From Mesostigma viride (taxonomy: Eukaryota; Streptophyta; Mesostigmatophyceae; Mesostigmatales; Mesostigmataceae), in assembly GCA_009746045.1 (NCBI GenBank), contig RPFO01000050.1, positions 3,389,216 through 3,453,215 on the forward strand: a stretch of 64,000 nt of DNA. Reading direction: 5' to 3'. Made by a program: the position numbers and the translations under genes. This document shows, in pieces, positions 1-64,000 of the stretch (the stretch's first letter is position 1; the number at the start of each line of letters is the position of its first letter). Under the pieces are notes generated by a model that did no database searches, was not told the origin of the DNA, and was given only the letters and a program-made list of their open reading frames with translations.

Positions 1-3000
1 TCCACACCATCATCCCCTGAGTCATCCCCCCCGGCCGCATCCCCTTCCTCCCCTCCCGCATCATCCTCCCCCTCCGCTTTGGGCCCAGTTGGCTCCTCCG
101 CATTCGCAGCCGCTGCACCCTCCTCGGACTTGCAACCGGCACCACCGCCCGTGGCTTCTGCGGCACCCTCTGCAGGGGTTGGTGTCGCCGTCGCTGTTGC
201 ACCCCCTGTGGAAGGATCGGTGGGCGTGGCACCGGGGCGCCGGCGGCCCTTCCCCCTGGCGGCCTCCCTCGCCAGCCGCTCCTGCTTCTTGGCCTCGCGA
301 ATCTGCTTGATGCGCTTGGCCTCGCGCTCCTCGTGCTCATCAACCGCTGCAGTAGCGGGGGGGCACGGGGGGGGGGGGGGGGAGTACGTAAGGGCAGCAT
401 AGGCGGGTTCAGGAGACAGCAGAAGAGGAAGAAGACGGGGGGCGCACCGGCAACAAAGAAATTTGCGACGACAAAGATCTTAGGGGAAGGGGGGGCGCCC
501 GCCAGGCCATGTAAGGCCGCCAAACGAGGAACTTCAAGTAGCGGCCACAAAGTAGAAGGGGGGATACAGGGGGAACAGACGGGGGGGGGGGGGGGGGGGA
601 GCCGGGAAGGGGCTCCAACAAGGGAACGACAGGGGGAGCACCCGCAGTAAAGAAAAATGGGAGCGGGGAGCACCCACAATAAAGATGAATGGGAGCGGGA
701 AGCCCCCGCAATAAAGATGAATGGGAGTGGGGAGCACCCGCGATAAAGAAGAAGGGCGGGGCAAACCATAGCAGGAGAAAGACTGGGGGGCACACGCAAG
801 GCCGCCATGGGAGGGTGAAGGGCGGCCGCGAAATCGAACAGAGAAAGATAACCGATGATTTTGGCCACCATGCCCCCGTGCCACTGCTTCCCTCATGATG
901 CAAGGGAGAAGTGATTCTTACACGCGCCACGAGTTGTGGCCCATACCCGGACAGCCCACACAAGTTTCTGCTCAAGCACGTCGTGTCACGCACAAGGGAA
1001 AATGATGGCGCTCGCCACACAGAGTAAATACCACAAAACAACTTACCGACAGGCTGTGGAGATCCATCTAATCAGCCGCCACGCGCGAACATTCCCAGCA
1101 CCTTCAAAACTTGATTCCCACCGACATTCGACGAACAAGTCACTTGCAAGTAGCGGCTGTGTACCCCGTCCACCCACACTCTCCACTGTCCACTTAAAGT
1201 ATTCAGCCTGGCACGCTCGTGCGCGTCCACTCACAGCATTCGTAGCGCACACCCTGCCAATCCTCACATTACTTCCACCCCCACCCCCTCCCCACACAGC
1301 ACTCGCAACCCACCCACCCCCTAACTTACAGTACTCGCAGGGCAGTGGCGCCACCTTCTCAAACAGCGCGATGAAGAAGCCGCCCGTGTCGTTGTGGTGG
1401 GGGAGTACCCGGATGCAGCGCTCTAGCGGGTACTTTGCCGCCAACTCCTCCGGGCTCTCCCTCCTCAAGTCATCCTCCGTGGCCTCGTCACCCAGCATCG
1501 CCGCGGCGGCTTCCGCGTGGGGGTATGTCCCGGGGGGGAAGCTGCTGGGGAACACGTTGCGCGTGCGGCCGGGGTCGACGTCGGACCACTTGTAGTACTT
1601 GCCAAACTTGTCACGCACCTGGGGGGGGGGGGGGGGGGGAAGGACGAGGAAAGGGGAGGAATGGGAGGGGGGGGGGGGGGGAAGGGAGAATAATGGGAGG
1701 GGTAGGATGAAAAAGGGGATATAGGGGTGCCGTGAAAAAAGTACTCGGAAGTCAGGAAAACAAAAGCACCATTAAGAAATGCCGCAATCTGTACATGGCC
1801 AACTTAAAAGGTTGCTTTTGGCCTTTTGCCTTGCTACTCGCCTACTCATGTGCCCATATTTTGCCCCTGCTATTCGGCTACTACCAAGCCCATAGAGGCT
1901 TGGTGCTCATGGTTTGCCTTGCTACTCATGTGCCCACAGTGGCTTGGTACTTTGGTACTGTAACGTTCCCGCTGTGCCTTGCCTCCTGCCACTTGTGTGT
2001 GCTGCCTCCTCATGGGCCAGCCACGCCTTGCCCGTTGCTTACATACACCCCCGCCTTGGCCTAGCTAGTGGCATGTGCGTTTGCCAGAATAGCTGTGCCT
2101 TGCTGAGATGATCGCCGGCTCTCACATGCCACGTGCGCCTTGCCTTGCCTTGCCCCCTTTGTCCCCTCCCATGCCACGTGGGGTTTCGCCATGCGCCTTT
2201 GCCCACTCCTATGCCACACGTGCTGCCCCCTTTGTCCGCTCCCATGCCATGCGTGCCTTGCCCCCTTTGTCCGCTCCCATGCCATGCGTGCCTTGCCCCC
2301 TTTGTCCGCTCCCATGCCACGTGTGCCTTGCCCCCTTTGTCCGCTCCCATGCCATGCGTGCCTTGCCCCCTTTGTCCGCTCCCATGCCATGCGTGCCTTG
2401 CCCCCTTTGTCCGCTCCCATGCCATGCGTGCCTTGCCCCCTTTGTCCGCTCCCATGCCACGTGTGCCTTGCCCCCTTTGTCCGCTCCCATGCCATGCGTG
2501 CCTTGCCCCCTTTGTCCGCTCCCATGCCATGCGTGCCTTGCCCCCTTTGTCCGCTCCCATGCCATGCGTGCCTTGCCCCCTTTGTCCGCTCCCATGCCAC
2601 GTGTGCCTTGCCCCCTAGCATATACTCACGTGCCATGTGTGCCGCCCCGGCATCGTCTTGAGCTGTTCGGGCGGGAACAAGTTCTGGATGTCCTTGAGGA
2701 CGAGCGCGCCCTTGGTCCGGCGCAGCACCTGGTGTTGTGGATGATCGCATCAAGCACAGCACAGCAGAACCATCATGTAAAAACAGCGCATGCAAAAACA
2801 TGATGTGGCGCTCAGTCTGCTATCGGTGATGCGCAGCACCTGATGAGGTATGAAGTGATAGGAGCATGCATGACGACGCATGACGACGCATGACGACGCA
2901 TGACGACGCATGACGACGCATGACGACGCATGACGACGCATGACGACGCATGACGACGCATGACGACGCATGACGAAGCATGACGACGCATGACGACGCA

Positions 3001-6000
3001 TTACGACGCATGACGACGCATGACGACGCATGACGACACATGACGACGCATTACGACGCATGACGACGCATGACGACACATGACGACACATGACGACACA
3101 TGACGACACATGACGATCTGATGTGATATGAGCACACGACCAGCCAACATCATGATGATGCAGTCAGCCCCACAAGCACAATGGAGCCAAGCTTGCGTTT
3201 TTAGTGTGCCCTTGGTACAGCGCAGCACCTGAAGCGGATGATAGCATGCATACGCACCCACCAAGGTGTAAGGTCAGCGTTTGTTTGCTCCCTTTGCTGT
3301 TGGGGGCCTCAACTTGTTGCCCACCGCCTCGTCCTCCACACGAGCATATGATGTGTACCTGCTGCTTCAAATCTCGACATGCAATCAATCTTCTACTAGC
3401 ACGATCCCCCCTTCTTGAGCGTGCTGCTGGCGGCCTCACCTCGACGACCACCGCCTCGTCCTCCACCGGGTTGAGCGAGCACGTGGAGTAGACCATCTTT
3501 CCACCGACCTTGGTCAGAGCGGCACCTGGCACCGACCAGGAAAAAAAAAAAAAAAAAAAGGGCGTGGCATGGCGTGGCATATGCCAGGCCGAGCATACAA
3601 GGGGTTTTGTGCCAAGCTTACACAGGGGAAAAAAAAAAGAACACTTTTAGGAGTTAGGACAGGAAGAAAATGCCAGGCTCGAGCGTGGCAGGAAAGCAAC
3701 CAAGCAGGGAACCTCGTACGGGCGATGACGTAGCAGGCAGACGATACAGCAAAGGATGCCCTATGAAATAGGTTGAGGAAAGGCAAGGGATACAGCAAAG
3801 GATGCACTATGAAATAGGTTGAGGAAAGGCAAGGGGGGAGAGAGAATACAGGGATATTTGGAGTGGACATCAGGAAACCAGGCGCCCTATGGCAGCATGT
3901 GGTGCCGCACATGTGGTGGCATGGTGCCTGAACTTCATGCAAACAATGGGCAGAAAGAAGCACTGCAAGTGGGACGCTAGCAATGCAACCGGCAGTGCGA
4001 ATAGCGGTGATTCAGGGCTAGGGAGTTCCAAATGGGACACGACATTACGGACCACGGAATGTCGAGCATACCTTGCAGAGAAAGTATCCGTGATAGCGGG
4101 AAACAGACAGCACGGGCCTGACCAATCACGCCCATAGGGTGAGCGCTATACCAAATATAGCCAAGAGAGGCAATACTTTGACACTGAGGCTATATTTGAA
4201 TAGTGATGATGGAGGCTATACTTAGACAATGAGGCTGTGTTTGAAGAGTGATGATGGAGGCTTCATTTCTATGATGAGCGTACCTCGCAGCGGGACTAGC
4301 AGTAATAGCGCTGCCGAAGCACAGTATGGGCCATAGCAACTATGGGGGCCACATTTGAACCATGGGCCATAGCGACTGGTGATGGAGGCCATACTTGAAC
4401 CATGGGCTTACCTCGCAGCGCAATCTTGTACTGCAGCTTGTGCACGCCGTTGCCCAGCGCAGGGTTCCTGTCCCACGTCACCGCCGCCAGCAGGACCAGT
4501 GGTTAGAAGGCAGTGGTTGTGAGGAGGATACCAGAGGTTAGGAGGCAGTGGACTCGCCACGAGTGGGTACTGCCACAGTAAATAAGTCGGCAGCCGGAAT
4601 AGGGAGGCATCGCCATGCTCCACGGCCAGGCAGTAGCACCAGCAGCCGCCAGAAACAACAGGTGGTAACTGCCAAAATTGGTGACAAGTGACGTAGTACA
4701 GTAGCAAGAAATCATGACAATAAGTCGAACTGATTCAGCTACTTCCCCGAAAATCACTTGCTCGCCTGATCAAATGGTTGCAAAGGAGACTGGGTGATGC
4801 GATGCGAATCACCTGATGCGGCTTTTCTCGATTACAGCCCTGATTCCAAAGAACTTCTTACAAACGTAACGCCACATGCTTGGCAGCAACAAAGCTGCAC
4901 AAGGAGAGGCACAAAAGAGCCGCACATGCTTGGCTAACGTCTAGGAAAGCTGTACAAGGCCATTACAGCATGCTGCCTGGCTCAACCATGGTAACTTCTG
5001 TTCACTTCACTCCACGTAGGCACCACAAAAATCTTCTCAAGAATTTTCATGTCAACGCTCCATCTGGGAAAGGCCATACTTTACATGTCCGCGCAAGTAC
5101 AGCAACTAGCTATACTTGAAGCAAACTACTGGAAAACAAATACACCTACATCCACACCGCGCAAAAGTAAATACAGATATAGAAACATACCACTTGGTCC
5201 ACACACCTACCGCAGTTAGTTGCAGCTGATGCACGTAGCATTTGACCCACACAGGTAGTGCAGCTAGCTACCCATGAGACAACCAAATATACTTAATACA
5301 CCCACCACCACTTAGTCTACAGCTCGAGCGCCTAACTGTTTAAGGGTTTGTTATAGAATACTACTACTACTATGATAGCTATATTCCAAACACCCACCAC
5401 TTGGTCCACAGGTCGGGCGCCTTGCGCATCGTCCCGTCGCCACTGCACGGGACATCACACAGAACGCGGTCGAACAACAACCCATCCTGCGGCATAACGC
5501 CGCCACCCGGCTTGGCCGCGGCACCCTCGTTGCCTCCCCCTGCATCCCCGCCGCTGCCTTCCTGCCTCGCCCCCGCGGCTCCCTCGACCCCTGCCCCAGG
5601 GCCATCGGTGGCGGCGGCAGCATTCGAGGTCGTCTCACGGGGGGCGCCCCGTGACGGCCTCAGCAATGGGAACAGCTGCGCCTCGTGGTTGGTCACGATC
5701 ACATTCGGGCTGGCCATGCGCTTGATCTGGTGGACTAGCAGGTGGCAGCGCTGTGCGTCCACGTCGTTCGCGACCACGAGGCCCGTCGCCTCGGCTGTGG
5801 AGCTGCTGTCTGACGTCACGTGGACCATCTCCATCAGCTGGAAGGTCTTGGAGCCGGGCGCGGCGCACACTGGGGGGGAAGGAAAAGGGACAATGACAGG
5901 GGGCGGGGGACAGAAAAGGAGAAAGGAGAAAGATAGAGACGGAGAAAGGAAAATGAAGAACGATGGGGGGGGGGGGGGGAAGGGGAGGAACAAAGGAGAA

Positions 6001-9000
6001 AGAAGAGAGGGGGGGAAAGGTGGACAAAGGGGGGGGGGGGGGAGTGCAAAGACAGGGGAAAGAAAGGGTCAGCAAAGGTGGAAGGGGGGTCGGACAGGAG
6101 GGGGAGGGGGGGAGGGAGTAAGGGGGAGAGGAGGTTCAGCGGGTGGGTGGGAGAGCGGGTTGGTTGGTTGGCCCGAGGGGTTGGTGGATATGGGGGCATA
6201 TTGATGGGTGCATCGTCTCTTCTACGCTCTCACAATCGATCCAGTTGGGGGCATCGATCGGTCTGGATGAAGGCTGGCTTGTTTGTAGTTAGGTTAATAC
6301 TGTGCGAAAACCTTTTGCCACTTAACTTCTAAGGTTCCGCACAATATTACCGGGGATAACCACTCGCTGGTACACTCAAGTTGCACTCAAGGTGCCGGCA
6401 TGAACTTGAGTGTACCAGCGAGTGGTTATCGCCGGTAATATTGTGCGGAACCTTAGAAGCCGAGTGGCAAAAGGTTTCCGCACAACATTACCCTAACTTT
6501 CGTAGGATAACTGGGCGCACAATATATATTAGGTTTCCGCACAATAATTACCTAACTTTAGTTGGATAACTGGGCGCACAATATATAAAAGGTTTCCGCA
6601 CAATATTAACCTAACTTTAGTTGGATAACTGGGCGCACAATATATAATAGGTTTCCGCACAATTTTAACCTAACTTTAGTTGGATAACTGGGCGCACAAT
6701 ATATAAAAGGTTTCCGCACAACATTACCCTAACTTTCGTTGGATAATTGGGCGCACAATATATAAAAGGTTTCCGCACAACATTACCCTAACTTTAGTTG
6801 GACTTTTGTTGGATAACTGGGCGCACAGGGAGGGAAATGAGCATTTCCCTGACATGCGATAGTGCTGCACTTGAGGGCATGAATATAAGGGCATGTATGA
6901 TGATGCATGGGGCGGGGGGAGGGGTGAGAGGGGGGGTGAGGAGGATGGGCAGGGGGAAAGTGGTCCATCCGCAGAACAGCAGCCAATACCATTTATATCA
7001 TCGAGAAGGAAGTTGGGTGTAAACGCCAATGGGTAAGGGTATAAATACTCAGCAGGGTCTAATAACTCAGATCAGGGCCGATGTGGTAAGAGAAAAGGGA
7101 ACTCCGACAGCAAAGCTTTGCAACCCTAGCCCCAGCGAGGGGCAACCTTCGAAGCGTTAAGAAAAATGACAAGGCGCCAAAACGCAAGGGGGCCCAAAAA
7201 CAAAAAAAGGGGGGGGGGGGGGGGGGGGCGGGGACTCACTGTCAAGAACTTTGTGGCCCGGGTGCACGTCGAGCACAAAGGGAGGCAGCTGGGCACGGCC
7301 ACGCGATGTGATGCAGTCCAGCCGGCCGTTTGACATGGTCCCGAAAGCAGTGGCCAGTAAAGCGAGGAACATACACATTCACATCGCGAGAAAATGGATA
7401 CGTAGTTGTATATATATGTCAGATGAGGATTAGGTACGGTGCCAGCCAAAGCAGACACGAGCGTGTGTGAGATACCCAGGGCTGGCATGGCACTCCTATA
7501 CACTAAAGAGACCATGACGTCCATGAGACAAGCAGCGCATGGCATGGCATTCCTATACACTAAAGAGACCATGACGTCCATGAGACAAGCAGCGCATGGC
7601 ATGGCACTCCTATACACTAAAGAGACCATGACGTCCATGAGACAAGCAGCGCATGGCATGGCACTCCTATACACTAAAGAGACCATGACGTCCATGAGAC
7701 AAGCAGCGCAGGCCAGAAATCTGGAGACACGCCAGCAGAGCCGACGCCAACATGCCTGCTGCCTATGTATCCTAGAGGCATTATGACCGCAACCCAGCCA
7801 ACTAGGAAATACTCAACCCAGCCAACAAGGAAACAATCAACCAGCTGACAAGGAAACACGCAACCCGGCCAACGAGGAAATGCGCAACCGGGCCAACAAG
7901 GAAACAATCCACCCAGCTGACAAGGAAACACGCAACCCAGAAAGACAAGGAAACACGCAACCCGGCCAACGAGGAAATGCGCAACCGGGCCGACAAGGAA
8001 ACAATCAACCCGGCCAACAAGGAAATACTCAACCCAGCCAACAAGGAAACAATCCACCCAGCCGACAAGGAAATAATCCACCCAGCCGACAAGGAAACAT
8101 GATGGCAAAGCGAGCACCAGCCAGCTGGTCCATGATAGTGCCACCACGTGAGGGATGCTGGTATACAACACGACACGTTACTGTAGCGCGTGCGGTGCAC
8201 TCGTGGAGCGACCACACGCGGGATGCTGGCACAGGACAGTAGCACGATCCAACACTCGCAGCGCGACACAACACTCGCAGCGCGTGCGGTGCACCCACCA
8301 TGCTCACGGCCTCCTGCCGCGTGATGCTGCCCAGGTCGTTCTCTCGCTTCATGTACTCGTGGAGCCTGTGGGGCCGAGGGGGTAGATGAATGGGGAAACA
8401 GGTTACAAATGATGATATAACGATATAGTTAGCAAATGGGGCCCGGCGGGGAATCCGTTTGGGGCGCGGCAGGGGCAGGGGTGAGGGACCGCAGGAGCCG
8501 GGAGAATGGATAGACAAGAACAATACAAGTACAAGCCAGTTTCACAGTATGTTTTGGTACCAACTCTTTTCACAGTATCATGGGCACCCCACCCCACAGG
8601 GTGCCAGATGCTGGGTCCAGGCTGCTCATTGTAGGGTTGCACGCCTGAAATTATAGACCAACTAATATGGATGCTCAGAATCGAACCGAGGGATGGAACC
8701 GAGGCGTACTTGTATGGGGTGTGCTCACTTTGGCAATACGTGATGTAGCTCTGCAATGAATAGAGGCCATGAGCGGACGCTAGAGGCCACTCCTCACGCG
8801 GTGCTCATGTTTGCATGAGAGGACACTACTCCAAGTCACTTGTCCAGCACCAGCAGCTCGAGCAGGAGGCGGTCGCCAGCGAACACAGAACCATGGCACA
8901 CAGCAGCGGGCATGGCGATGGCGATAAGGCCTGGCTTTGACTCACTTGTCTAGCACAGGAAGCTCGTGCAGGTCGGCATCTCTGCACGTTTATACATGTA

Positions 9001-11803
9001 TATGAACATGTATATCTTATATGATGTAGGCATGACCCAAACTGACTTCTCCAGAGCCAGCAGCTTGCCCAGAAGGTGGCAGCTATCTAATGACACTGTA
9101 TGTCCAATGCTACAAGGCTATCCCTATCTAACAGGAATACATTTGAAATACGAGCCACGAGGCACATCTCTTGCTCACTTTTCCAGCACTGGCAGCTTGC
9201 GCAGGTCCGTGCGAGAGAAGTTAAGCTGCCACGCCATTTGGTCGGGGTACCAGCTGAGGGGGCGCGGCGCCTGGATCGTCACGCCGTTGCTTAGCTGTGA
9301 CCACCATCCAAGCAGCAGCAAATATAAACCACTATACACATCAAGCATGTCACCAAACATGTGCGTGGGTGTGAGAGAGAGAGAGGGGGGGGGGGGGGAG
9401 GGAGGGAGGGAGGGAGGGAGGGAGGGAGGGAGGGAGGGAGGGAGGGAGGGAGGGAGGGAGGGAGGGAGGGAGGGAGGGAGGGAGGGAGGGAGGGAGGGAG
9501 GGAGGGAGGAGGGAGGGAGGGAGGGAGGGAGGGAGGGAGGGAGGGAGGGAGGGAGGGAGGGAGGGAGGGAGGGAGGGAGGGAGGGAGGGAGGGGGAGGAG
9601 GGAGGGAGGGAGGGAGGGAGGGAGGGAGGGAGGGAGGGAGGGAGGGAGGGAGGGAGGAGGGAGGGAGGGAGGGAGGGAGGGAGGGAGGGAGGGAGGGAGG
9701 GAGGGAGGGAGGGAGGGAGGGAGGGAGGGAGGGAGGAGGGAGGGAGGGAGGGAGGGAGGAGCGAGGGAGGGAGGGAGGGAGGGAGGGAGGGAGGGAGGGA
9801 GGGAGGGAGGGAGGGAGGGGGGCAAGAGAGACAGACAGAGCGACAGACAGAGAGAAAGACACACACACACAGAGGGGGGGGGGGGGCGTTTGGTTGACAT
9901 GAATCATACAACAAATTTACGGGCTCAGGGCCCAGGCCCAAATAGCTTTCAAACAACGCACAACAAGCGGTCAGGGTCCAGCACCAAGCAAGCAGGGCCC
10001 ACCATGCATGCAATCAAACAGAGCGTGCCAGGGAGTCGAATAAACGCTTCCGGCCGCCACACAAGCAGCTCACAACGCGCGGCGCATGCACGCAGCACCA
10101 TGGGCATGGACTTCCCCCAACGTTTTTTTTTTAAATACTCCACGTGCCGCATACCGCGGTGCCATTGTTTAGTCACTGGAAGGAACGGATCCATCGTACA
10201 AGCTCCTATGCATAACTCCTCCCACGACTGCCACGCACCGCCACCCTCTTGTCGAGGAACTGCAAGGAAGGAGCTAATCTATCCTAGGCATCACAGTAGT
10301 AGTGTTGACACGAATTCCCACAACCGCCACGCACCGCCACCCCCTCGTCGAGGAACTGGAAGAAGTCGTGCTTCATCTGGTCGCGGATGTGGGTGGCGAA
10401 CCGGCCGCTGGGTGGGGGCAGACGGGAAGAAATGAACGTGGAGGCCACGCCGGTTATTCGCAAATAGGAACACGGAGGCCACGCCGGTACCGCAGATAGG
10501 AAGAGAGGGGAAGAGAGAGGAAGAAATGGGAAGAGAGGCGAAGAGAGGGGAAGAGAGAGTAAGTGAGAGGACGAGAGGGGAAGAAGGGGAAGAGAGGGGA
10601 GGAGAGGGGAAGAGAGGGGAAGAGAGGGGAAGAGAGGGGAGGAGAGGGAAGGGAGGGGAAGAGAGGGGAAGAGAGGGGAAGAGAGGGGAAGAGAGGGGAA
10701 GAGAGGGGAAGAGAGGGGAAGAGAGGGGCAGAGAGACGAAGTTAAGGGAAGAGAGAGGAAGAGAGGGGAAGCGCGGGATCAGCGCGTGCAGAGCATGAAG
10801 GTGGGAGCCTTGGTGGGCAGGAGGCACAGGTGGGTACTGTGGTGTGCGAAGGGAGGCATCCGGCGGTTCAATGGGTTCAAAGCTACCTCTCCTGGCAGAG
10901 GAGAAAGAACCGCCCTTGCGAAGCTTAGTACCCATGGCAAGCAGGTGAGCGGCTCGCAGGACTGGTGTCATTGACTGAGCATTCCCCCGACGGCCCATCC
11001 TTGATTGGCCGGTTCTCCCGCGACTAATAGCTGGTGGTCCGGTGACAAAAATAGCACCAACGAATCATGACGTGTACAGATAAACAATTAACAAGGATGA
11101 TAAATTTCACGTAGCATGCGGAAAGAGCCACCACGTTCTCAGTACTATCGTAAAGGCGCCAGTCCTAAAGAGTGAAATTTACCTATGTGCCATTATAGAT
11201 AGGTGAGTTCATAAAACTACATAACTATACCCGTGACTGCACAGCAGACGAGCGTACAAGGACCAGCAAGCTGCCATGTGCAAAACAACCGACACCTTAG
11301 AATACAACCCATAACAGTCGGAATCCGGCCTCGCAAACCAAGGGCGCGTAGAAGCGGGCACTGACCCCCCATTGATGCGAAACGTGATGGGCAGTCGGGT
11401 TCTCATCGAGGCCACGAAAGCATCCCATTCTCCTTCTGGAATAATGTTTTGTTCCTGCAAAGTTCAAATTTTGATGAAGATATGCAAGCATGGTACGTGC
11501 TTGTTAAAGTCAGTAAGCATAAACAGCACGATGACATGATCCTCTTCGCTCTTGGTATTAGGGAGCATCTACGACCACAATGAAAATGTAATGCCACTCG
11601 TAACCTTCAACTTGCATAAGACATCATATGCTTACTTTGTAATAGCTTTCCCAGTTATCATTGGTGAGGTCATGGGGTGCTGTGTGCCAGCCGCCTACGC
11701 CATCTGCATTTGCGGTTTTAGACTTCTTCCACACATTCTCGCGTCCCCCGAAATCCCTTCTGAGGATCCTTTTGCCTCTCCCGCCACCTCTGCCTCGGCC
11801 CAT
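1..11803 (-). CDS. NSUN2: NSUN2/TRM4-like RNA (cytosine-5) methyltransferase, 3' end beyond the window
   Basis: Likely makes m5C in tRNA and other RNAs using S-adenosylmethionine. Exons read on the minus strand: 11803-11636, 11454-11366, 10407-10341, 9294-9179, 8365-8299, 7288-7240, 5869-5398, 4467-4412, 3525-3440, 2728-2630, 1618-1330 and 346-<1; every junction is GT-AG and phase-consistent (about 634 codons here). The start ATG opens a short basic MGRGRGGGRGKR stretch. Family landmarks in order: LSWYPDQMAW, QEAVSM, SAM loop CAAPGSKT (joined across exons 6/7), VVANDVDAQRC, motif IV DRVLCDVPCSGDGTMRK with its Cys, and motif VI YSTCSLNPVEDEAVVVE with the catalytic Cys. C-terminal LPHHNDTGGFF is typical of NSUN2/Trm4. 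Exon 7 has a low-complexity Ala/Gly insert just before motif IV. The last exon is a charged, Glu/Lys- then Gly/Ala-rich tail without a stop. Introns are loaded with minisatellites and echoes of exon ends. Family assignment is firm; substrate specificity is inferred. Confidence 0.93.
655..770. repeat. ~32-bp minisatellite, intron 11 of NSUN2
   Basis: About four imperfect copies of a unit containing GGGAGCGGGGAGCACCCGCA followed by an AATAAAGATGAAT-like stretch. It lies inside the last intron seen (347-1329). G-rich homopolymer runs flank it (361-382, 581-599). Confidence 0.8.
2210..2615. repeat. 35-bp minisatellite abutting the exon 10 donor of NSUN2
   Basis: Around eleven near-identical copies of a 35-bp unit (starting CCCCCTTTGTCCGCTCCCAT, then GCCATGCGTGCCTTG or GCCACGTGTGCCTTG). 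The period is not a multiple of 3, so all frames stay open and give spurious 160-250-residue ORFs. The array stops about 15 bp from the splice donor (2624-2629). On the sense strand the unit has CACACGTGGCATGG, resembling the exon end CACACATGGCACGTGAG. Confidence 0.92.
2869..3116. repeat. 10-bp satellite (CATGACGACG)n, intron 9 of NSUN2
   Basis: About 24 copies of TGACGACGCA with a few variants (ACACA, AAGCA, ATTACG). It sits in the intron between exons 9 and 10 (2729-3439), between two degenerate copies of the exon 10 acceptor region (2826-2842 and 3209-3232). Confidence 0.93.
3743..3834. repeat. 46-bp direct duplication, intron 8 of NSUN2
   Basis: Two adjacent copies of a 46-bp unit (3743-3788 and 3789-3834) beginning GATACAGCAAAGGATGC, differing at about one base. 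The near identity suggests a recent tandem duplication. Confidence 0.85.
6301..6484. repeat. Foldback (inverted repeat), intron 6 of NSUN2
   Basis: Arms 6309-6382 and 6403-6476 are reverse complements over about 74 nt with few mismatches, and the match runs a little further outward. The loop is about 20 nt. The transcript could form a long hairpin. The right arm runs directly into the tandem array that follows. Confidence 0.9.
6471..6835. repeat. ~59-bp tandem array attached to the foldback, intron 6 of NSUN2
   Basis: About six copies of a unit starting AAGGTTTCCGCACAA, with AACTTTAGTTGGATAACTGG and GCGCACAATATATAA further on. The first unit overlaps the outer part of the foldback right arm, so the array probably grew from it. 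Confidence 0.88.
7482..7730. repeat. 57-bp minisatellite, intron 5 of NSUN2
   Basis: Four copies with a 57-bp period, containing CACTAAAGAGACCATGACGT. The last copy continues GAGACAAGCAGCGCAGGCC, then AGAAATC, and so resembles the conserved end of the dispersed R family described elsewhere in this window. The array may have been seeded by an old R copy. The period is 19 codons, so it gives a spurious open frame. Confidence 0.88.
7796..8100. repeat. Degenerate ~20-25-bp repeat array, intron 5 of NSUN2
   Basis: Loosely repeated units of CAACCCAGCCAACAAGGAAA with many variants (CGGGCCAACGAGGAAATGCG and others). It is non-coding, between exons 5 and 6. Confidence 0.8.
8834..9080 (-). pseudogene. 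Three decayed copies of the exon 4 end of NSUN2
   Basis: The real exon 4 ends LRKLPVLEK at 9179 followed by GTGAGC. Reading minus, intron 4 holds three look-alikes: 9041-9080 (GGCAAGCTGCTGGCTCTGGA), 8941-8975 (GAGCTTCCTGTGCTAGACAA then GTGAGT) and 8834-8870 (GAGCTGCTGGTGCTGGACAA then GTGACT). Each keeps the donor-like GTGA/GTCA context. They are not needed for the frame and read as duplicated exon-donor junctions. Confidence 0.75.
9387..9829. repeat. (GGGA)n microsatellite, intron 3 of NSUN2
   Basis: About 440 bp of GGGA with occasional GGA interruptions. On the transcribed strand it is a polypyrimidine (CCCT)n tract upstream of the exon 4 acceptor (9294). A large spurious ORF (8966-10435) crosses it. 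Confidence 0.97.
10500..10780. repeat. 10-bp purine satellite (GAGAGGGGAA)n, intron 2 of NSUN2
   Basis: Roughly 25 imperfect copies. On the sense strand it is a CT-rich tract about 90 bp upstream of the exon 3 acceptor (10407). Confidence 0.92.
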
Positions 11804-12466: not shown

Positions 12467-15400
12467 ATGCACGCTCCCAGGCTTGGCGCCTCGAGCAGGA
12501 TACATGGACGTTCAGGCCGTCTTTTGCCGTGCGTGCTGCTCACAATGGCGATTATAGTGGGCTCCTTGGTGGGCTACTGGACATCATCGTCCCCATTTTC
12601 AACCGTGGACCCCCAGTTCCCGCATGGGACGCAACCATCGGCAGCAGACCGTGTGACCGCCATAGGCTTCGTCGCCACCGAGAAACAAGAGGATATCGAG
12701 CCAACCAAGGCCCAGCGGCCCCACACGGTCGAACATCACGAGTGTCCCTCCTACTCCGGGCCTGGCTATGCCAAGGACAGGGCGGATATCACCTACCGCT
12801 CTGTGCCGACGGACGCGGGCATCGGCGCGGAGCCTCCGCCGAATTACCGCAGTGCTCTCATCAGCATCGTGCCAGTGAGCTTGGCTGACGTGAGGCTCAC
12901 GCCTGGAAATATCTTCTGGGAGCACCAGCAGACGAACGAGGCCTACCTGCTCTCCCTGGATCCGGACCGGCTCCTTTGGCCCTTCCGCGAGCTGGCCGGC
13001 CTGCCGCATCCACTAAAGGCGCAGTGCTACGATGGGTGGGAGCACCCGCAGTCGGAACTGGTACGCTGCCACCCCAGCGCAGTATGCATTTACGGTTCTC
13101 TAGAAAGGAGAGCAAGTAAAACGACAGGATCAGTTGTTCTATCCACGTTTCTTACTCGCAGTGCATCCTCCTTCTGCACGATGTAATGGATGCATGCGTT
13201 GCTGCCATGCACTGCGCTCAATCCAAATCTCTGCGCTCTTCCAATCCATCCACTCATCAACCCCATCCAACCCTTTGGTAAAAAAATAATGATTTAGTCT
13301 CATAATTATAAATAAGACCTTCCCATCCCTCTGCGACCCTCCCCCCGGGGTATTCTTAGTTTTAATTGTATATATCTGTTGCATGCGCTTCTTGCATCCC
13401 CCGCCTGTGCCTCCCCCCCCCCCCCCCACAAACCCTCCAACTTCGCCCTCTTCCAAGCCCCCCTTTCACCCTTCAACCCCTCCATTAGCCTTCTCCCTAC
13501 AACCCTCAGAATTACCCTGCTTCCACGCAACAAGGCCACATGCACGCATGATGCACGGGGTATATTTTGTCATGTACTGCTTAAACCCTACCCCCACACT
13601 CTTTTCCCGCACAACCCCCATGCACGCAGCCATTCTACAGACCACATTTTGCCTGCCACCACTACAACCCTTCCTTCCTCACCTCCGCCCCCCCTCTTAC
13701 CTGCACATACCACACGTGTGACATGACGCCCAATCCAACTCCCCCAAGAGGGAGTGCTCCCCCCCTCGCACACAGTACGGCCACCAAGTTAACCTTCCCT
13801 TGCCCTTCCGAACCCCTTCTATTGTACATACCCCAACGCACACATCGCGCCCACTCCCTGTCAGCCACCAAATCTCTAGTAACCTTCCTTTGCCTTCCCC
13901 ATGACTTTTTCTTACCCCCCCCCTCCCCCCCCGTTAACCTCGCCCCCATGCCCACAGCGCGGCCACTTCACGGGCCACTTCCTGTCGGCCACCGCCTTCT
14001 CTTATGCTGCCACCGGGCTCAAGCCGCTGCGTGACGCGGGGCGGTACCTAGTGGACGGCATCGCGGAGGCCCAGGCGGCGCTCCGCAAGGCCAACAAGAT
14101 GGGCTACGTGTCCGCGTTCCCCGACGAGTTCTTTGACCGGGTGGAGGCCGTCAAGCCGGTGTGGGCGCCGTACTACACGGTGCACAAGATACTGCAGGGG
14201 CTGCTGCACCAGGGGACGGTCGGTAGGTCTTATGTTTTTTTGTTTGGTTGTGCTGTGAAGTGGGGGACTGCTTGCTTTGGAGCTGGGGACAGTTTGCATT
14301 GCGAGAATGGCAATCAGACAGGGGACGGTCGGTAGGTGCAATACAATGTGACAGTCTTAGTTGCGTTGGTTTGATGTGGGGGATTATTGGTAGGTATTAG
14401 GTCTTAATATTTGTTGGTACTCGATACCCTGACTACATTTTTGTTTTTGTTGTGTAGATGTAAGCTGGCTCATGGCTGACTCTTGCACGGGGCCGGAAGC
14501 ATATGTCCTCGATGCACAGGGCGGTAGCGTTCCAGAACGCGTTCTATGTGTATGTTTTGGGACCAGTAATAAAACAAATTAACACCTTCGGGCTGTGCGG
14601 AGGATGGCGTGAGATTGAGGAGCATGCGTGAGTCAGATGCCTGTCACCAAATGCACGCCTTACCCCTACCACCAGGTTACCCGCTCGTGTACGGTTGTCA
14701 AACAAACAGTGTCCATTGCCTTTGTATTCTAACAGGCCACGCAGCAGGCAGTTTTGGATATGAAGGATCTTCATGCGAAGCACTGGTGTGGTCTGCCGTT
14801 CCATTGATGGATGCCCGTTGGATCACGCAGAGATCTACTCAGGCTTATCTGTGGCTTACATGCGAAGGCTTATCTGTGGCTTACATGCGAAGGCTTATCT
14901 GTGGCTTACATGCGAAGGCTTATCTGTGGCTTACATGCGAAGGCTTATCTGTGGCTTACATGCGAAGGCTTATCTGTGAAGGCTTTGGTTGGGGAAATTC
15001 CCTCCCCCATGCAAACGGTTCCTCTGGCAATGTATCTCGGTGTTTGTGTTTGCCCTTTTCTGTTATTTGTTTGAACACCTGTTCCCATTCATCCATGCGC
15101 CTGCCCACGTTTCAGAGGGGTCGCTTGGGAATCAGTATATTGCTTAGCATATCACAGGATATTGCTTAGTGTATCATAGTATATTGCGTAGCGTGTGCAT
15201 CGTTTCATAGTACGTGGCCTCATAAAAATCTATTCTTGAGAGGTATTGGAAGTGTATATTTTCATGCATGGGTGCCCACGTCCCCTGCCCACAACGACAA
15301 CGGCACTTTCCAGGCAGGTACCGCAAGGCCATCGAGGTGGCGCGTGGCCTGGCGGACTACTTCTACACGCGCGTGGAGACCCTGATCCAGACTCGCTCAC

Positions 15401-19680: not shown

Positions 19681-19763
19681 GAAAAAGGGAAAATCGGGTG
19701 GCTTGTCCCGTTGCATGAGATGGTGGATGAGAAGTACACAGTGTTCTGGGAGATGGAACCATG
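19618..19763 (+). repeat. Tandem duplication of the GH127 C-terminal coding end
   Basis: The stretch encoding the last residues (CTTGCCCCGTTGCATGAGAT onward, 19618-19671) recurs at 19699-19752 after the stop, with two substitutions in about 54 bp. The TAA at 19678 lies in the unit joint, so the duplication either created the present stop or fell just behind it. Confidence 0.85.
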
Positions 19764-20164
19764 AGGGACTGAGGGCCGGTGGCGTATCATGCCCATGAAA
19801 TCGTAGCAATGTAAGTAAGTAGCAATTCTTGCAAAAGTTGGCACAAGAGCAAACCCTCCGTTGAGACAACGCAAGAAACACGCGGCGCATTTGGCCGGTA
19901 TTGAATGAATTGGTCGGTCATGGGTGGACTGGTATATTTGGAACATTCAGCAAAACGTGCTCACTTGTCCTAAATGGAACCTTTCTCTGTGTCGATGTAT
20001 TTATTGTTGTAAATTGTTTGATTAATCAACTTGGATCGTACGTGGTTCTGTATCATTCCTTGTATTGTAGACACGGGCAGCCATGGATGCAAATAAAACC
20101 CGGCAGCGCGCCTGCGTAGTTGGCCACATGCAATCATCAGTTTGCATTCGATCCCGCCGGCATA
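19764..20164. other. Intergenic, GH127 3' flank
   Basis: No coding or repeat structure recognised. TGTAA motifs (e.g. near 19810) could serve as algal polyadenylation signals; unproven. Confidence 0.4.
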
Positions 20165-20280
20165 AATTAATTATCAACATCACTCCGTTGCATGGGAGTC
20201 AATGTAGCACATATCCCTGAGAAGGGGCATATGGCTTTTAATACATCCTAGGCTACTTCATGCAAGGGTGGAATGTAAAT
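20165..20280 (-). mobile_element. LINE family C 3' end, fragment
   Basis: Minus-oriented copy of the family C 3' UTR: TTAATTA tail, hairpin relic (CTCCGTTGCATGGGAG), CACATATCCCTGAGAAGGGG, then CATGCAAGGGTGGAATG. No ORF is left. About 420 bp of AT-rich sequence without features follow. Confidence 0.75.
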
Positions 20281-20702
20281 AAAGGCATAAAGGCCATAGA
20301 AATTTAAGACAGTAGTATTTTGAGAGTTGCTTCTAGAGACTGGTCTGATTTTGCATGATTGACCGCGTGGGGCTAGCAGTTAGAATTGATCACGATCCAA
20401 TTAAATTAAATTAAATTAAATTATAACGATTGATCACGATCCAATAGCTGGTTCATATCGGACAATTTCGGACGTCCACACTAGCTTGCACCGCTCTCGG
20501 ACCAGTAAAGAGCTACTTTTTCGCAGGTGGACTATCGCAATCATGGGATGACTTCGGATCAGGAGACCCGTATAGCCGCGAAATCATGCAAGAGGCACTG
20601 TGTTCGAATCCCGTACCAAACTATTTTTCACTAATAGTCTGCCACTGACCCGGAACCTCGAGTCAAGACCCAAATTCTGGTTTCTTCTAAATCAGGCCAT
20701 AA

Positions 20703-50389: not shown

Positions 50390-50420
<31 letters not shown>

Positions 50421-53930: not shown

Positions 53931-54560
53931 AGCGCTGAGAGGGGGCATATGAGCCTATAATACATTCTAAGCGACTTCCTGCAAGGGTGGGAATGTAAAC
54001 AACACTTGCTCTAGGTGCACTAGGGCACCTGCACCACCCAGAGTCTCGGGCAACTCCCAGCTAAGGGGAGCCCGTCGTAGGTGGGGAAGATCAGCATAGC
54101 TATACAAGAGCTAAGGCATGGCTTCTCAGCAGGGAGTGACTCCCGGCATGGGCACTGCATAATAAAATAAAGCTAGGCATCATCTGGAGGGTGGCTCATC
54201 ATAGGCACACATATGTACATGACTAAAAATGCTAGGCCTCAGCTGGTATAGTGCCTGTAGTAGGCGGGCATGTACAAGGCCACTGTCTAACTATTGTACA
54301 CTACTGCTGCTGTATTCCCCTAGGCTGGGATTAATTAGGAACATAACTCCATCGGGAGTATATGTAGCACATAGCCCTGAGAGGGGGCATATGAGCCTAT
54401 AATACATTCTAAGCGACTTCCCGCAAGGGTGGGAATGTAAACAACACTTGCTCTAGGTGCACTAGGGCACCTGCACCACCCAGAGTCTCGGGCAACTCCC
54501 GGCCCAGCTAATTAGGGGAGCCCGTCATAGGTGGGGAAGATCAGCATAGCTATACAAGCA
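53931..54560 (-). mobile_element. Two family C 3' ends in tandem, minus
   Basis: 53931-54329 and 54330-54560 share about 180 bp at high identity (GAGAGGGGGCATATGAGCCT, CTTGCTCTAGGTGCACTAGG, AGCATAGCTATACAAG). The second carries its own TTAATTAGGAACATAACTCC end. Confidence 0.75.
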
Positions 54561-54589
54561 GTATACTTACTTACGCAGTATACTTACTT

Positions 54590-58165: not shown

Positions 58166-58289
58166 ATATAGTTCTAAATCTTCTTTAGGGCGCTTACTTG
58201 TTTTGGGGCACCCTACGCCGACTGCATGGAGCTCGGCCATACCGCGGCTATGACATGCGAAATTATCGATCTGGACATGAGCGAGCAAT

Positions 58290-59640
58290 AAATACACATG
58301 AACGTACGTGTACGTGCATGCACGCGGGCAGATCTCATTGATGTGTACCGACAGGTACTATATGTTATCTCACACCGCACCCACCCCACCAGCCTCGATC
58401 TCCCCAACCCCCTCCCGATACCGCGGGTCCCCGGCGGCGCCCCTAGGCAGTGGCCAAACGCCGACACCACTCGCTGCGCATCGCTACCTACAATGTCCGC
58501 ACCCTCATGCCGACCCGCGGGCGGGGGGGATGCCCCCCCCGCGGGCCAACGAGCTGGTCCACTACTGCCGCCCATATATGGCATGTTCGGATGTGCTCGG
58601 TGTTCAAGAGCACCGGCGCTCCTTTGAGGGCCCTGTTCAGCGTGTCACCCTTGCACTCCAGTGGCAACTGCTGTGCATGCATGCGGCCCGGCGCATGCGC
58701 AGGGTCAAGGTGGGGTGCGCCGGCTTGTTGTGCTCCCCCACCGCCTCCGCCAAACTCGTGGACCACAAAGTTTGCTCTAATCGGATCCTTCAGTGCACTT
58801 TCTGCTCGACCCCCATTATGCTCTCGGTCATTGTCGGCTATCGATGCCCCACACGCTGGGCACCCTGTCGACAACCGCGAAGCGTTCTTCAAGCAGTTGC
58901 TCGACCTTGAGCGACAGATCCCACGTCAATACCTCGTTGCCATCTTGGTGGATGCCATTGAATGCAACCCTCAGGCCCGTGGGCCGCGGGGGTTGCATAC
59001 ATGTAGGTGCCGCGCCTAACCGATAGCCGGCAATGCCAACACCCCCCTCCTTGAGCAACTACTCACTGAGGGTGACTTCGAGAGCTCTGCCATGCGATAC
59101 GTTGTTTGCTGAGCTGCCTGATGCGCTAGTGACCTTTGTGGGCCCCGCGCGCAGGGCGGCTGGCTCGGTACTCCCCCGCCGGGTGTGTGTTTGCTTGGAC
59201 TACATCCTTGTACGTGTGCAAATGCTGGCACTCGTCCATCATCGATGCCCGTATACGCTGACCACCCCAAGTGTCGCATCGGATCACCGCATGGTCACCG
59301 CAACAGGTTGCGCCTACGTCTTCAGGCCCCCGAGCGCCGCCGCCGCCGCCCTGATTGGACCTGCCTACGCCCCGTCCATGGGCGCCGGGAGAAGTGGGCC
59401 GAGGAGGAGACGCGCCGCGACGCAATCAGGTCTGCCTTCGTGGCTGCGCAACGTTTGATGCACCTGGATGCCGAATGCGGCATGCATGGATCTCACGCCA
59501 CCCTATCGCCCTTTACGTTTCCCGGCGTCCGGTGAGACGGTCGAAAGACTGCCATATGCCGCCTTGTGCTGGTTGGCGGCCGTGTGGCGATTGATCTCGG
59601 CAGCAAGTGTCTCTACACCTCCTTTGCGTGTGCGGCAGTA
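58290..59640 (+). mobile_element. LINE 5' fragment with APE endonuclease remnant (plus)
   Basis: HHSLRIATYNVRTL (APE motif, 58465), RQYLVAILVDAIECNP (about 58925) and, in other frames, LDYILVR and SVASDHRMVTA (SDH motif, about 59270), then GRREKWAEEETRRDAIRSAF. Multiple frameshifts. A short family A tail in minus orientation (59642-59695) borders it. Confidence 0.78.
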
Positions 59641-59999: not shown

Positions 60000-61290
60000 T
60001 GCACTAGCGCTCGCCAGTTGTGCGAGGACCACCCGGCCATCGCGCGCAGGTATAGCGAGGCTGGGCGGGCGCGGGGTTACTCAGGGAGCAGTTGAGAGCG
60101 GCAACATCCACGGATCGCATGAACAACTCGTAGGGTGGCGTGAGATCCAGGCCGCGTTCGGCATCCAGGTGCATCAAAGGTTGCGCAGCCACGAAGGCAG
60201 ACCTGATTTTGTCGCGGCGCTTCTCCTCCTCGGACCACATCTCCCGGCGCCCGCGGATGTGGCGTAGGCAGGTCCAATCAGGGCGGGGGCGGGGGTCGGC
60301 GGTGCTCGGAGGCCAGCTAAAGACGTACGTAGGCGCATGGTTACGGTGACCATGCGGTGATCTGATGCGACACTTGGCGGGGTGGTTAGCGTACGGGCAT
60401 CGATGACGGAAGAACGCCAGCACTTGCGCACAAGTATTGTGTAGTCCAAGCAAACACACCGCCGGCGGGGGAGTACCGAGCCAGCCGCCCAGCACGCGGG
60501 GCCCACAAAGGTCACTAGCGTGCGCATCAGGCCGGCTTAGCAAACAGCGTATTGGCATCTGTCAAGTCACCCTCAGTGAGTAGTTGCTCAAGGAGGGGGG
60601 TGTTGGCGCATTGCTATCCGCGCATAACTGCAGCCCCCGCGGCCCACGGGCAGCCGGGGCAGGGTCGCATTCAATGGCATCCACCAAGATGGCAACTGAG
60701 GTATTGACGTGGGATATCTGTCGCTCAAGGTCGAGCAACTGGAACCTTGAAAAATGTTTTGCAGTCTTCGGCAGGGTGCCCAGTGTGTGGGGCATTGTCG
60801 ACAATGACCGAGAGCATCATGGGGGTCCGTCCTTCAAGGGATCGAGCGGAAAGTGCACTGAAGCATCCGATTAGAGCAAACTTTGTGGTCCACGAGTTGG
60901 GCGGCAGCGGTGGGGGAGCACAACAAGCCGGCACCCCCCCTTGACCCGGCGCATGCGCCGGGCTGCCCAGCAGTTGCCATTGTGCAAGGGTGACACACTG
61001 CACGGGGCCATCAAAGGAGCGCCGGTGCTCTAGCTTGAACACCGAGCACATCAATGCCATATGGGCGGCAGTAGTGGACAAGCTCCTTGGCCTGCGGGGG
61101 GGGGGCATCCCCCCGGGGCAGCTAGGTGCGGGTCCACATTGTAGGTAACGATGCGCAGCGAGTGGTGCCGGCGCTGACCCAGCAAGGGGCGCCCCTGGGG
61201 ACCCGCGGTATCTCTAGGGGATTGGGGAGAGGCTGGCGGGGTGTGTGCAGCACTCGTGAGATAACATACAGTACTTTTCAACGCGCATAT
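60000..61290 (-). mobile_element. LINE 5' fragment with APE endonuclease remnant (minus)
   Basis: A diverged copy of 58290-59640 in opposite orientation: RRHHSLRIVTYNV (61150), SVASDHRMVTV (about 60360), DWTCLRHIRGRREMWSEEEK (about 60250). 59700-60000 between the arms holds nothing recognisable. Confidence 0.78.
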
Positions 61291-61715: not shown

Positions 61716-64000
61716 CTACGACTGCTGCTGTTCGTACTTGCCGTACTTCTGCACCACGGCAGCAGTGTTCATGGTGTCCCAGATCTGCAGACGAAAACCA
61801 GAATGCATATCAACGGGTAACAACTGCTTGAGAAACCACACACCTATTTTGGGTGACCACACACCGAGCTGAAAACACAATCCGATAGGGGGTGGCAGAG
61901 CCAAGCAACTACAAAGGGATGACATTTTTCTATAAGTTTCAACCTAAACAAATGAGATACAATGAATGTTGCCCGGGCCAGCCAGGGGGGAATGGTTGGC
62001 TCTGCTAGCGATCGACGCACATTGGGATGGAGATGTCAATAAGACAACCATGCGACGTGTCTGCATGGCAAGGTAGATGAGTAGCTACGGCTTCGCACGG
62101 CAATCCCTTGTTGCGAAGGCTCATGGGATTAAGCACAAACTAAAATAGACAAGGATAGGGCTACGCGTGGATTACAAGGCGATACCGTTCGGTGGTCATG
62201 TCCTAAAGTAAAATTCTAAAATGTGTCATTGATGAAGATCAAAGAAAATAGGGCAACATGTGGAGTACCATGCGACTATACCAAGGGGCCACGTACTACC
62301 ACCACAGTACACAAGAGTCACAACAAAAACCAGCATGTGGACATAGACAGGTACCACGTACCACCAGTTTGCCCTTGGAGCCACCGGCAGAGAGCAGGAA
62401 GGGTGAGTCCTTGCAGAAGGAGACTGCAAAGACGGCGCCCTGGCGGGTGCAGATACATCAGCCCAGAGAAAGCAGCCCACCGGCAGCACCCATTCAGAGA
62501 CGGAAGCAAGGCAACGGCCGCGGAGCACAGTTGTTAATGCATATTCGAAGGACCCATTACTCACAACCCCAGCACGACAAATGGACCCCCCCTTGTCCAC
62601 TCACTGCGTCCAGGCCCTGAGAACGCAAGCCCCCTTCAAGCCCCCCCTTCCCCCCCCCTACCCCCCCCCTACCCCCCTACCCCCCCTACCCCCCCTACCC
62701 CCCCTACCCCCCCCTACCCCCCCCTCCCCCCCCCCCTCCCCCCTCCCCCCTCCCCCCCCTCCCCCCCTCCCCCCTCCCCCCCTCCCCCCTCCCCCCCCCC
62801 TCCCCCCTCCCCCCTCCCCCCCCTCCCCCCCTCCCCCCCTCCCCCCCCCCCTCCCCCCCTCCCCCCCCTCCCCCCTCCCCTCCCCCCCTCCCCCCCTCCC
62901 CCCCTCCCCCCCCTCCCCCCCTCCCCCCCCCCCCTCCCCCCCTCCCCCCCCTCCCCCTCCCCCCTCCCCCCCCTCCCCCCCTCCCCCCCCTCCCCCCCTC
63001 CCCTCCCCCCCCCCCCCTCCCCCCTCCCCCCCTTCCCCCCCTTTCCCCCCTTCCCCCCCTTCCCGCACCACGTCCAGGTCCTGCACACAAAGCCATCGGT
63101 TATTCACTTGAGCTGTGCAACACAGTCAGATTCAAGCATCCTTGCCCCCAACCCCCCACGCACCACGTCCAGGTCCTGGCTGGTCACCAGCGAGGGCTTC
63201 TGCGCCGTCGTGTCCCACAGCTTGATCTGGGGGCGGCACAGGGAAGGGGGAGGGGGGGGAGGCCCATGTGCGCAGACATTCAAGAGTGTGTATACACGTG
63301 AGGCGCGAAAAGGTGATCCAGGCAGGTGTAACCCAACCCAAAAGCTATGATGACTGCACCAAAGCGACGCAAGTACGCAAACAAAAGAAGCCATGAATTC
63401 ACAGCAACGAATTCACAACAGCACGCACCGTCGATAACAGAGAAAATTGATGTAGTATGGAAAAACGATATAGAATGTGAATCTGGCACTGTGTACTGAG
63501 GAGGTGCTTCCTTGAGAAGAGGTGAGCATACTCTGGGAGCATACCAGAGCATATTAAATTGTCAGAGCACATTAAATAACTAATCAACTTAGTAGAGCAT
63601 ATGTGGGGTGCTTATGTACATGATATCAGGTTGTGTTCTCCTGCTTGCACTGTCACCCTTCTGCTTTTATCTCCTGATTGCACTGGCACCCTTCTGCTTT
63701 TATCTCCTGCTTGCACTGTCACCCTTCCACCCTTCACTTCCGCCAGCGTCACCCCGAGCTACGCCCTTTGCCCCGCTTGCGGCGCGGTTAGCCCATAACT
63801 GCTACCCTTTGCCCTAATCAATAAAACCCTATCGCAACATAGGGATCGAGGGACTGCCCAGACTCAAACGAGATAGCAGCGGGGAATGCCGTTTGCAGAG
63901 TGCCCCAGCACTGCTTTCTCCAGTAACCATGTCTCCCCTAATTGCTATCGCTCGCTTGCATCCACCTAGTGCTTCGCAAAGCAAACCCCTTTTGTGAAAA
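61716..64000 (-). CDS. PWP1: PWP1-like WD40 protein, last three exons (5' part beyond the window)
   Basis: PWP1 is a WD40 protein of ribosome biogenesis and rDNA chromatin. Exons seen on the minus strand: 63226-63164, 62439-62362 and 61784-61716 (stop TAG), all phase 0. They join as IKLWDTTAQKPSLVTSQDLD plus V, then GAVFAVSFCKDSPFLLS plus AGGSKGKLV, then IWDTMNTAAVVQKYGKYEQQ plus QS. Two WD repeats end in WDT. The AGGSKGKLxIWDT signature fits the C-terminal blade of PWP1 rather than a generic WD40. No further exon could be placed between 63227 and 64000, so the rest lies beyond the edge. The large middle intron holds a C-rich array bounded by copies of the exon end. Confidence 0.78.
62597..63084 (-). 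repeat. G/A-rich (sense) satellite bounded by PWP1 exon-end echoes
   Basis: 62636-63063 is (CCCCCCT)n-like on the plus strand. At both borders are copies of the exon end AGGACCTGGACGTG/GTGCGTGGGG: 63062-63084 (AGGACCTGGACGTGGTGCGG) and 62597-62619 (CAGGGCCTGGACGCAGTGAG), read on minus. Confidence 0.85.

Follow-up and report, generated by a model that had tools for sequence, protein, structure and literature searches.

We describe here a 64,000-nucleotide stretch of Mesostigma viride DNA (assembly GCA_009746045.1, contig RPFO01000050.1, positions 3,389,216 to 3,453,215 of the forward strand), which constitutes the whole sample and is referred to below as the window. Six gene models provide 28 introns, with eleven in NSUN2, five in GH127, six in RBM26, and two each in OCP3-like, RPS27A and PWP1. 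In about two in five of these introns there are short copies, in various stages of decay, of the neighbouring exon end together with its splice signal, and we refer to these copies as echoes.

The gene names are taken over from a preliminary description of this DNA, and support for the models differs between genes. The NSUN2 model is backed by a homologue search in which, among the 120 of 6058 matches listed, identities are 40–52% and those homologues that carry names are from the green lineage. Donor echoes are found at five NSUN2 junctions; across four of these the alignment with the 120 listed homologues is gap-free, and at the exon 3/4 junction the window protein has extra residues relative to most of them. 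The RPS27A model is also backed by a homologue search, with many polyubiquitin matches, and that of GH127 by Pfam. In RBM26, Pfam recognises a PWI domain within exon 1 and has no match in exons 2 and 7; the OCP3-like exons have none either. The PWP1 piece has only weak WD40 matches, below the Pfam cut-off, and comparison with solved structures gives many WD40 proteins, with PWP1 not named among the 60 matches listed. The names RBM26, OCP3-like and PWP1 are thus those of the preliminary description and are tentative; the junctions of these three genes are based on open frames and splice signals. The summed models run out of frame in GH127 from exon 4 on and in RBM26 from exon 1 on. In both genes the loss of frame adjoins homopolymer runs as read by eye (GH127 exon 4, ~16260–16290; RBM26 exon 1, ~39860–39900), and candidate causes are sequencing error, a real change, or model error. 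GC content is 66.6% in exons and 53.4% in introns, and the window has no Rfam match at gathering scores and gives an empty tRNA scan.

Copies of exon ends in their own introns

Each junction, represented by 30 nucleotides of exon and 15 of intron, was compared with its own intron and with 1000 dinucleotide shuffles of it. Without masking, an own-intron match is obtained for 12 of the 28 donors at p<0.01 and 15 at p<0.05, and for three of the 28 acceptors at p<0.01. When the comparison is made with all 27 other introns, the own intron is the best match for 14 of 28 donors and four of 28 acceptors, and the enrichment over shuffled or swapped introns that the preliminary description had set as a check is thus seen in the window. 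Masking of tandem arrays (threshold p≤0.01) leaves 13 donors and four acceptors of 28, the former including RBM26 intron 5, which is low-complexity CAG/GAG-rich sequence, and NSUN2 intron 10, which contains a minisatellite similar to the exon end. In the same masked test, reverse-complement queries match at none of the 28 donors or 28 acceptors, donor queries match the upstream intron in 0 of 22 cases, and acceptor queries match the downstream intron in two of 22, both weakly. Mid-exon pieces match in only two of 250 comparisons (2 of 124 with the downstream intron and 0 of 126 with the upstream one), again weakly.

A BLAST comparison (E≤0.05) identifies echoes at 11 of 28 donors (19 pairs) and three of 28 acceptors (3 pairs), as well as 23 intron pairs and one exon-only pair, which is the close PWP1 copy. 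Donor and acceptor pairs are both absent from the reverse-complement control, which has 11 intron rows. At E≤0.01 ten of the 28 donors remain, PWP1 being the weak one. Donors are therefore echoed more often than acceptors, both in the masked test (13 vs 4 of 28; Fisher P=0.019) and by BLAST (11 vs 3; P=0.029). The copies are of graded age, with identities spread from 70 to 100%, as expected from the progressive decay noted earlier. It had also been claimed that almost every large intron is affected, and this is too strong: of the 24 introns of at least 300 bp, 11 have a donor echo by BLAST (12 with one acceptor-only case), and 13 do so in the looser masked shuffle test (15 with acceptors). None of the four introns shorter than 300 bp has an echo, and neither of the short RPS27A introns has a donor echo, in agreement with the preliminary description.

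The exons are GC-rich, a few of the weak cases are of low complexity, and the RBM26, OCP3-like and PWP1 models derive from frames and splice signals, such that chance or a model artefact might be considered. We regard this as extremely improbable overall, and for the strong cases it is refuted by the shuffles, the swapped introns and the reverse-complement, upstream-intron and mid-exon controls; moreover, the better-supported NSUN2 and GH127 models by themselves have BLAST donor echoes in six of their 16 introns. The echo observation is real.

The echoes are centred on the junction. In a profile of overlapping 24-bp segments (which are not independent, and with arrays masked except for the RBM26 exon 2 repeat), the own intron contains a strong copy for 40% of segments near position −8 (n=47) and for 32% at the junction itself (n=56). 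On the exon side this falls to 14% at −24 and 4% at −48, reaches background by about −50, and is 0 of 593 deep in exons; on the intron side it is 13.5% at +16 and 5.5% of 3167 segments deep in introns. A search with the exon part only, ignoring the donor, gives 11 matches, one of which lies at the distal end of NSUN2 intron 5 and was dropped as a non-echo. In nine of the ten kept the GT is in exact register and in the tenth it is one base off.

The individual copies are listed in Table 1, and most had been located correctly, at or near these places, in the preliminary description. This is so for the donor echoes of NSUN2 exons 3, 4 (three copies), 7 (two) and 9, GH127 exon 2, and RBM26 exons 1 (four) and 2 (two), and for the acceptor echoes of NSUN2 exon 10, OCP3-like and RBM26 exon 5. 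Four other families stand in part. The first of two echoes reported for NSUN2 exon 8 is recovered and the second (4065–4084) is below threshold; likewise, two of three RBM26 exon 6 echoes are found and the third is not. At RBM26 exon 4 both copies are present, the second having lost its GT, and of the two reported for PWP1 one is strong and the other has only E=0.015. Larger copied units are also present in RBM26 intron 1, and the arrays in this intron and in NSUN2 intron 10 appear to start from a donor copy. The RBM26 array is (GGTG)n, with ~52 units at 40540–40748, and its apparent start is the donor of the fourth exon 1 echo.

Table 1. Positions in the window of the copied junctions (templates), their echoes and related repeats
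Feature	Positions	Strand	Remarks
NSUN2 exon 3 end and donor	10316–10362	−	template, −28 to +19
NSUN2 exon 3 donor echo	10220–10270	−	89% over 47 bp, 96 bp downstream
NSUN2 exon 4 end and donor	9174–9207	−	template
NSUN2 exon 4 donor echo 1	9042–9072	−	77%
NSUN2 exon 4 donor echo 2	8937–8974	−	82%
NSUN2 exon 4 donor echo 3	8819–8866	−	84% over core
NSUN2 exon 7 end and donor	5394–5422	−	template
NSUN2 exon 7 donor echo 1	5288–5333	−	
NSUN2 exon 7 donor echo 2	5183–5203	−	
NSUN2 exon 8 end and donor	4374–4420	−	template
NSUN2 exon 8 donor echo	4254–4292	−	
NSUN2 exon 9 end and donor	3422–3466	−	template
NSUN2 exon 9 donor echo	3295–3339	−	84% over 45 bp, GT one base off
NSUN2 exon 10 acceptor and exon start	2703–2731	−	template
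NSUN2 exon 10 acceptor echo	3203–3247	−	86% over 29 bp
NSUN2 exon 10 second acceptor echo	2831–2870	−	weak, barely at threshold
NSUN2 intron 10 minisatellite	2146–2616	−	35-bp unit resembling exon 10 end, 13.4 copies
GH127 exon 2 end and donor	14210–14228	+	template
GH127 exon 2 donor echo	14319–14337	+	19/19 identical; filler similarity borderline
GH127 exon 2 second echo	14379–14418	+	weaker, 70%
GH127 coding end with stop codon	19618–19681	+	template
GH127 coding-end echo	19702–19765	+	3′ flank, 84 bp downstream, 90.6% over 64 bp
OCP3-like last-exon acceptor and exon start	23248–23313	−	template
OCP3-like acceptor echo	23343–23416	−	
RBM26 exon 1 end, donor and first echo	40217–40281	+	template of larger copy
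RBM26 exon 1 donor echo 1	40261–40279	+	
RBM26 exon 1 donor echo 2	40340–40378	+	
RBM26 exon 1 donor echo 3	40415–40464	+	
RBM26 exon 1 donor echo 4	40522–40546	+	merges into (GGTG)n array
RBM26 exon 2 end and donor	42582–42647	+	original 66-bp unit
RBM26 exon 2 copies	42648–42784	+	two head-to-tail copies of 66-bp unit, ~96–100%
RBM26 exon 4 end and donor	46015–46059	+	template
RBM26 exon 4 donor echo	46103–46147	+	93% over 45 bp; intervening filler TG-rich
RBM26 exon 4 second echo	46153–46198	+	decayed, GT lost
RBM26 exon 5 acceptor region	46296–46383	+	original
RBM26 exon 5 acceptor echo	46204–46291	+	nearly head-to-tail 88-bp copy, 76%
RBM26 exon 6 end and donor	47422–47492	+	template
RBM26 exon 6 donor echo 1	47528–47556	+	93%
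RBM26 exon 6 donor echo 2	47673–47742	+	73% over 70 bp
PWP1 exon end and donor	63142–63178	−	template, −15 to +22
PWP1 donor echo	63043–63083	−	20/20 identical across junction
PWP1 second echo	62597–62619	−	weak, 83% over 23 bp

Copy geometry and the origin of echoes

The nearest donor copies lie 43–132 bp downstream of the original and have cores of ~19–71 bp (at RBM26 exon 2 the first copy is spaced at 66 and the second at 132). In ten of the 11 donor families the nearest echo is preceded by 24–101 bp of filler, and only RBM26 exon 2 has none. Replication slippage, offered in the preliminary description as a possible cause, would give head-to-tail copies, and in that form it does not agree with the filler in most donor families. 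When the families are sorted by hand, as are all geometry classes in this analysis, and NSUN2 intron 10 is counted as the twelfth, ten of 12 donor families lack head-to-tail geometry; it is seen at RBM26 exon 2 (66 bp, three times), in the NSUN2 intron 10 array and, among the acceptors, at RBM26 exon 5 (88 of 92 bp). The remainder have direct repeats flanking filler, as in the staggered-break type discussed below for Daphnia.

The most economical explanation is that short local duplications arise recurrently in the repair of breaks and survive where they are harmless, although this does not account for all of the preference for exon edges, and we consider that it has about an even chance of being correct. 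Break-repair copying would leave a copy of ~15–70 bp on the same strand, ~40–340 bp from its source and usually with filler between, the filler presumably being inserted in the same event as the copy. For an event across an exon end, the original exon end and donor would remain upstream and stay in use, and the copy would be removed with the intron by splicing and then decay; edge-straddling copies may thus do no harm, since the original upstream is still functional. Events in exon interiors would be purged, and in those confined to an intron both copies would decay, so that the pair is lost from view about twice as quickly. A copied acceptor would lie upstream of the true one and tend to be used first, which is a plausible reason for acceptor copies being rarer. 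Away from the junctions the same introns contain 12 rows of discontiguous copy pairs and 45 head-to-tail arrays (after merging), and local duplication is thus generally active. A further instance lies outside of the introns, where the end of the GH127 coding region is echoed in the 3′ flank (Table 1); of the coding edges compared, one of five stops and none of five starts has an echo. Although a single case, it favours a general duplication process, suggests that splicing need not be the cause, and hints that the common factor is perhaps the edge of constrained sequence.

A second explanation is ordinary tandem duplication without any bias towards junctions, in which slippage is followed by decay and the donors stand out through conservation of the exon copy. 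The merged intronic arrays are in keeping with this, as are RBM26 exon 2 and the RBM26 exon 5 acceptor, which are plainly head-to-tail, and there is significant spacer similarity in three of 26 comparisons (NSUN2 introns 3, 7 and 8; p=0.006–0.036), which may be older, decayed tandem units; borderline values are obtained for GH127 exon 2 (intron 2; p=0.052) and for NSUN2 intron 9 (p=0.060). However, cores of 93–100% identity at RBM26 exons 4 and 6, PWP1 and GH127 lack clear filler similarity. RBM26 intron 4 is informative in this regard, as the donor filler has no similarity (p=0.91) despite an echo of 93%, whereas that intron's acceptor echo, at 76%, is recognisable over 88 of the 92 bp of spacing, and decay alone is therefore insufficient to account for the missing filler similarity. 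The corresponding values are p=0.55 for RBM26 exon 6 and p=1.0 for PWP1. We preferred the spacer test and this donor/acceptor contrast to flank extension because BLAST cores stop where similarity stops. With the donor excess also persisting over a doubled background (see below), tandem duplication by itself appears quite unlikely.

The copy-filler-copy arrangement is also what would be left by small, donor-preferring inserted elements of an introner-like kind, with the echoes as target-site duplications. Introners form dispersed families, and the likeness is that many introns of one genome are marked by repeated sequence. The copies here are, however, private to each intron within the window, and no dispersed family is seen there, in line with the preliminary description, which set the copies apart from introners. 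Beyond their own exon ends the introns have only two matches in the window at E<0.01, namely an exon of another gene (RBM26) and a piece of intergenic DNA, and thus within it they do not have the look of introners or a transposon family. The fillers form no family in 342 pairwise comparisons, with the exception of one 24-bp block shared by NSUN2 intron 7 (5347–5370) and RBM26 intron 6 (47501–47524), just upstream of the echo in each; this pair scores second-highest of the 342 (p=5e-5) and is a point in favour of such elements. We rejected element insertion with target-site duplication because the fillers in the window form no family, and we consider it very improbable.

Several observations weigh against a general duplication process that merely survives at exon edges. 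Junction-unrelated pairs occupy 485 of the 16069 unmasked intron bases (3.0%), and 11 of 28 donors is a large excess over this, with P=3e-7 even when the background is doubled; part of the 3.0% is itself probably chance, because the reverse-complement control also yields 11 intronic rows. Conversely, when decay is simulated in a simple way, a pair of which one member is conserved is recovered about 1.84 times as often, which counts in favour of such a process. If the 45 arrays (1406 bp of unit length) are taken as single events the background rises to ~11%, or 22% when doubled, and the probability of at least 12 of 28 donors, with NSUN2 intron 10 counted as the twelfth, is then 0.0098. The donor excess accordingly ranges from ~13-fold to ~2-fold, depending on what is counted as the same process and on the slower decay of exon-anchored pairs, and it is not fully accounted for; what remains may reflect a junction hotspot or retained decoy sites. 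Geometry differs too, since ten of 12 donor families are discontiguous, compared with 12 discontiguous rows and 44 head-to-tail arrays for the intron-only copies (P=1e-4; P=1e-5 when rows are merged by hand to 8 discontiguous pairs and 45 arrays, the latter version counting the NSUN2 intron 10 array on both sides). The two sets of copies are thus perhaps not products of one process.

Mutation aimed at 5′ splice sites would provide for such an excess, either through breakage linked to transcription or splicing (e.g. at R-loop ends) or through repair templated by pre-mRNA fragments at the early spliceosome, copying the segment from −30 to +15 into the intron downstream. The sharp peak near −8 with its narrow core, the excess of donors over acceptors, the short discontiguous copies, two of which are perfect over 19–20 bp, and the leftover excess above the intronic background are all consistent with this. 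Nonetheless, discontiguous copies are also found deep in introns, acceptor echoes exist, there is an echo at a coding end with no splice site, and the sample is small and from one window, and we view aimed mutation as rather unlikely. The stronger proposition, that splicing or transcription steers the copying such that the segment from about −30 to +15 of the 5′ splice site is repeatedly copied downstream, and introns grow from their 5′ edge and contain fossil exon ends, we consider unlikely.

Splicing, coding and related systems

The preliminary description suggested that echoes may be tolerated because a duplicated site keeps splicing possible. If the echo donors were used, the reading frame would be kept without a stop at only three of 20, namely both copies of RBM26 exon 2 and that of NSUN2 exon 9, which lends this suggestion little support. 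The same count does not support a role for echoes as coding sequence or as alternative coding exon ends. The NSUN2 exon 4 echoes have changes in codons for residues that are near-invariant among the 120 listed homologues, and these copies are thus not kept as coding sequence.

Selection could instead retain echoes as decoy 5′ splice sites, acting as competitors or pseudo-exon ends that tune the removal of long introns. Decoy exons are found in retained or detained introns (e.g. in OGT), as splice-site-like intronic sequences that could compete with the authentic sites. Echoes resemble them in being splice-site-like sequences within an intron and possibly competing; to our knowledge, copying from the neighbouring exon is not part of the decoy-exon class. 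The register of the GT noted above fits with selection of this kind, and among 12 diverged echoes the changes to the donor 9-mer are milder than random (P=0.001), which is a hint of constraint and a further point against neutral copies. However, the value is only 0.07 given that GT is kept, and the register step in this comparison favours GT. The real donors tend to be stronger, not weaker, where an echo is present (P=0.048 over all introns and 0.21 over those of at least 300 bp), such that tolerance fits better than need; the identical blocks of 19–20 bp would exceed what a decoy presumably needs; and the altered NSUN2 exon 4 codons indicate the absence of coding constraint. We think retention as decoys decidedly unlikely, and local duplication in break repair remains our preferred reading.

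Tandem arrays such as minisatellites are abundant in the same introns, but most donor echoes are low-copy and discontiguous. Parallels are found in two published systems. One is the neointrons of Daphnia pulex, whose internal direct repeats are ascribed by the authors to repeated staggered double-strand breaks (PMC4202315); they share with the introns described here exon-terminal direct repeats together with internal repeats, and a passive route to longer introns. The echoes differ from the Daphnia repeats as reported there (PMC4202315) in being ~15–70 bp copies downstream of the same donor, with the donor included and up to four per intron. A second is the potato RdRp gene, in which a tandem genomic duplication across an intron-exon boundary created a new intron in one case (PMC4974935). 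The likeness is in a duplication that spans a splice boundary and brings splice signals with it, but the potato duplication as reported (PMC4974935) involves an intron-to-exon boundary, whereas the window shows no sign of a new intron, most of its copies are of donors and intervening filler is usual.

We found no named class for splice-junction copies in introns in the open-access literature. What seems to be new is the scale and form, with 11 of the 28 introns in a single window having donor-carrying copies of ~15–70 bp, up to four in each. How introns lengthen is poorly known, and if about two-fifths of introns hold exon-end copies of graded age, the genome would be a natural recorder of intron growth, from which its age and direction and any preference for junctions could be read. 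It would then be possible to measure in nature how far the splicing machinery tolerates duplicate donors, and a junction preference, if true genome-wide, would suggest a link of splicing or transcription with mutation.

Other repeats in the window

Several additional repeats are present, two of them within introns of the genes discussed above. RBM26 intron 3 has approximately eleven copies of a 58-bp unit at 45054–45706, the unit containing TTGCAG, an acceptor-like motif, and one PWP1 intron has a 419-bp C-rich tract (62641–63059) that is nearly homopolymeric. An intergenic inverted repeat of ~1.2 kb (27639–28797 and 29726–30927) has 92% identity between its arms, and a second inverted pair of ~1.2 kb (58350–59505 and 60131–61279; 79%) is putatively retroelement-like. 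There are also short dispersed repeats (e.g. 20161–20282, 33845–33962 and 54330–54444, among others), some near TTAA-type runs, that possibly represent a family of small transposable elements.

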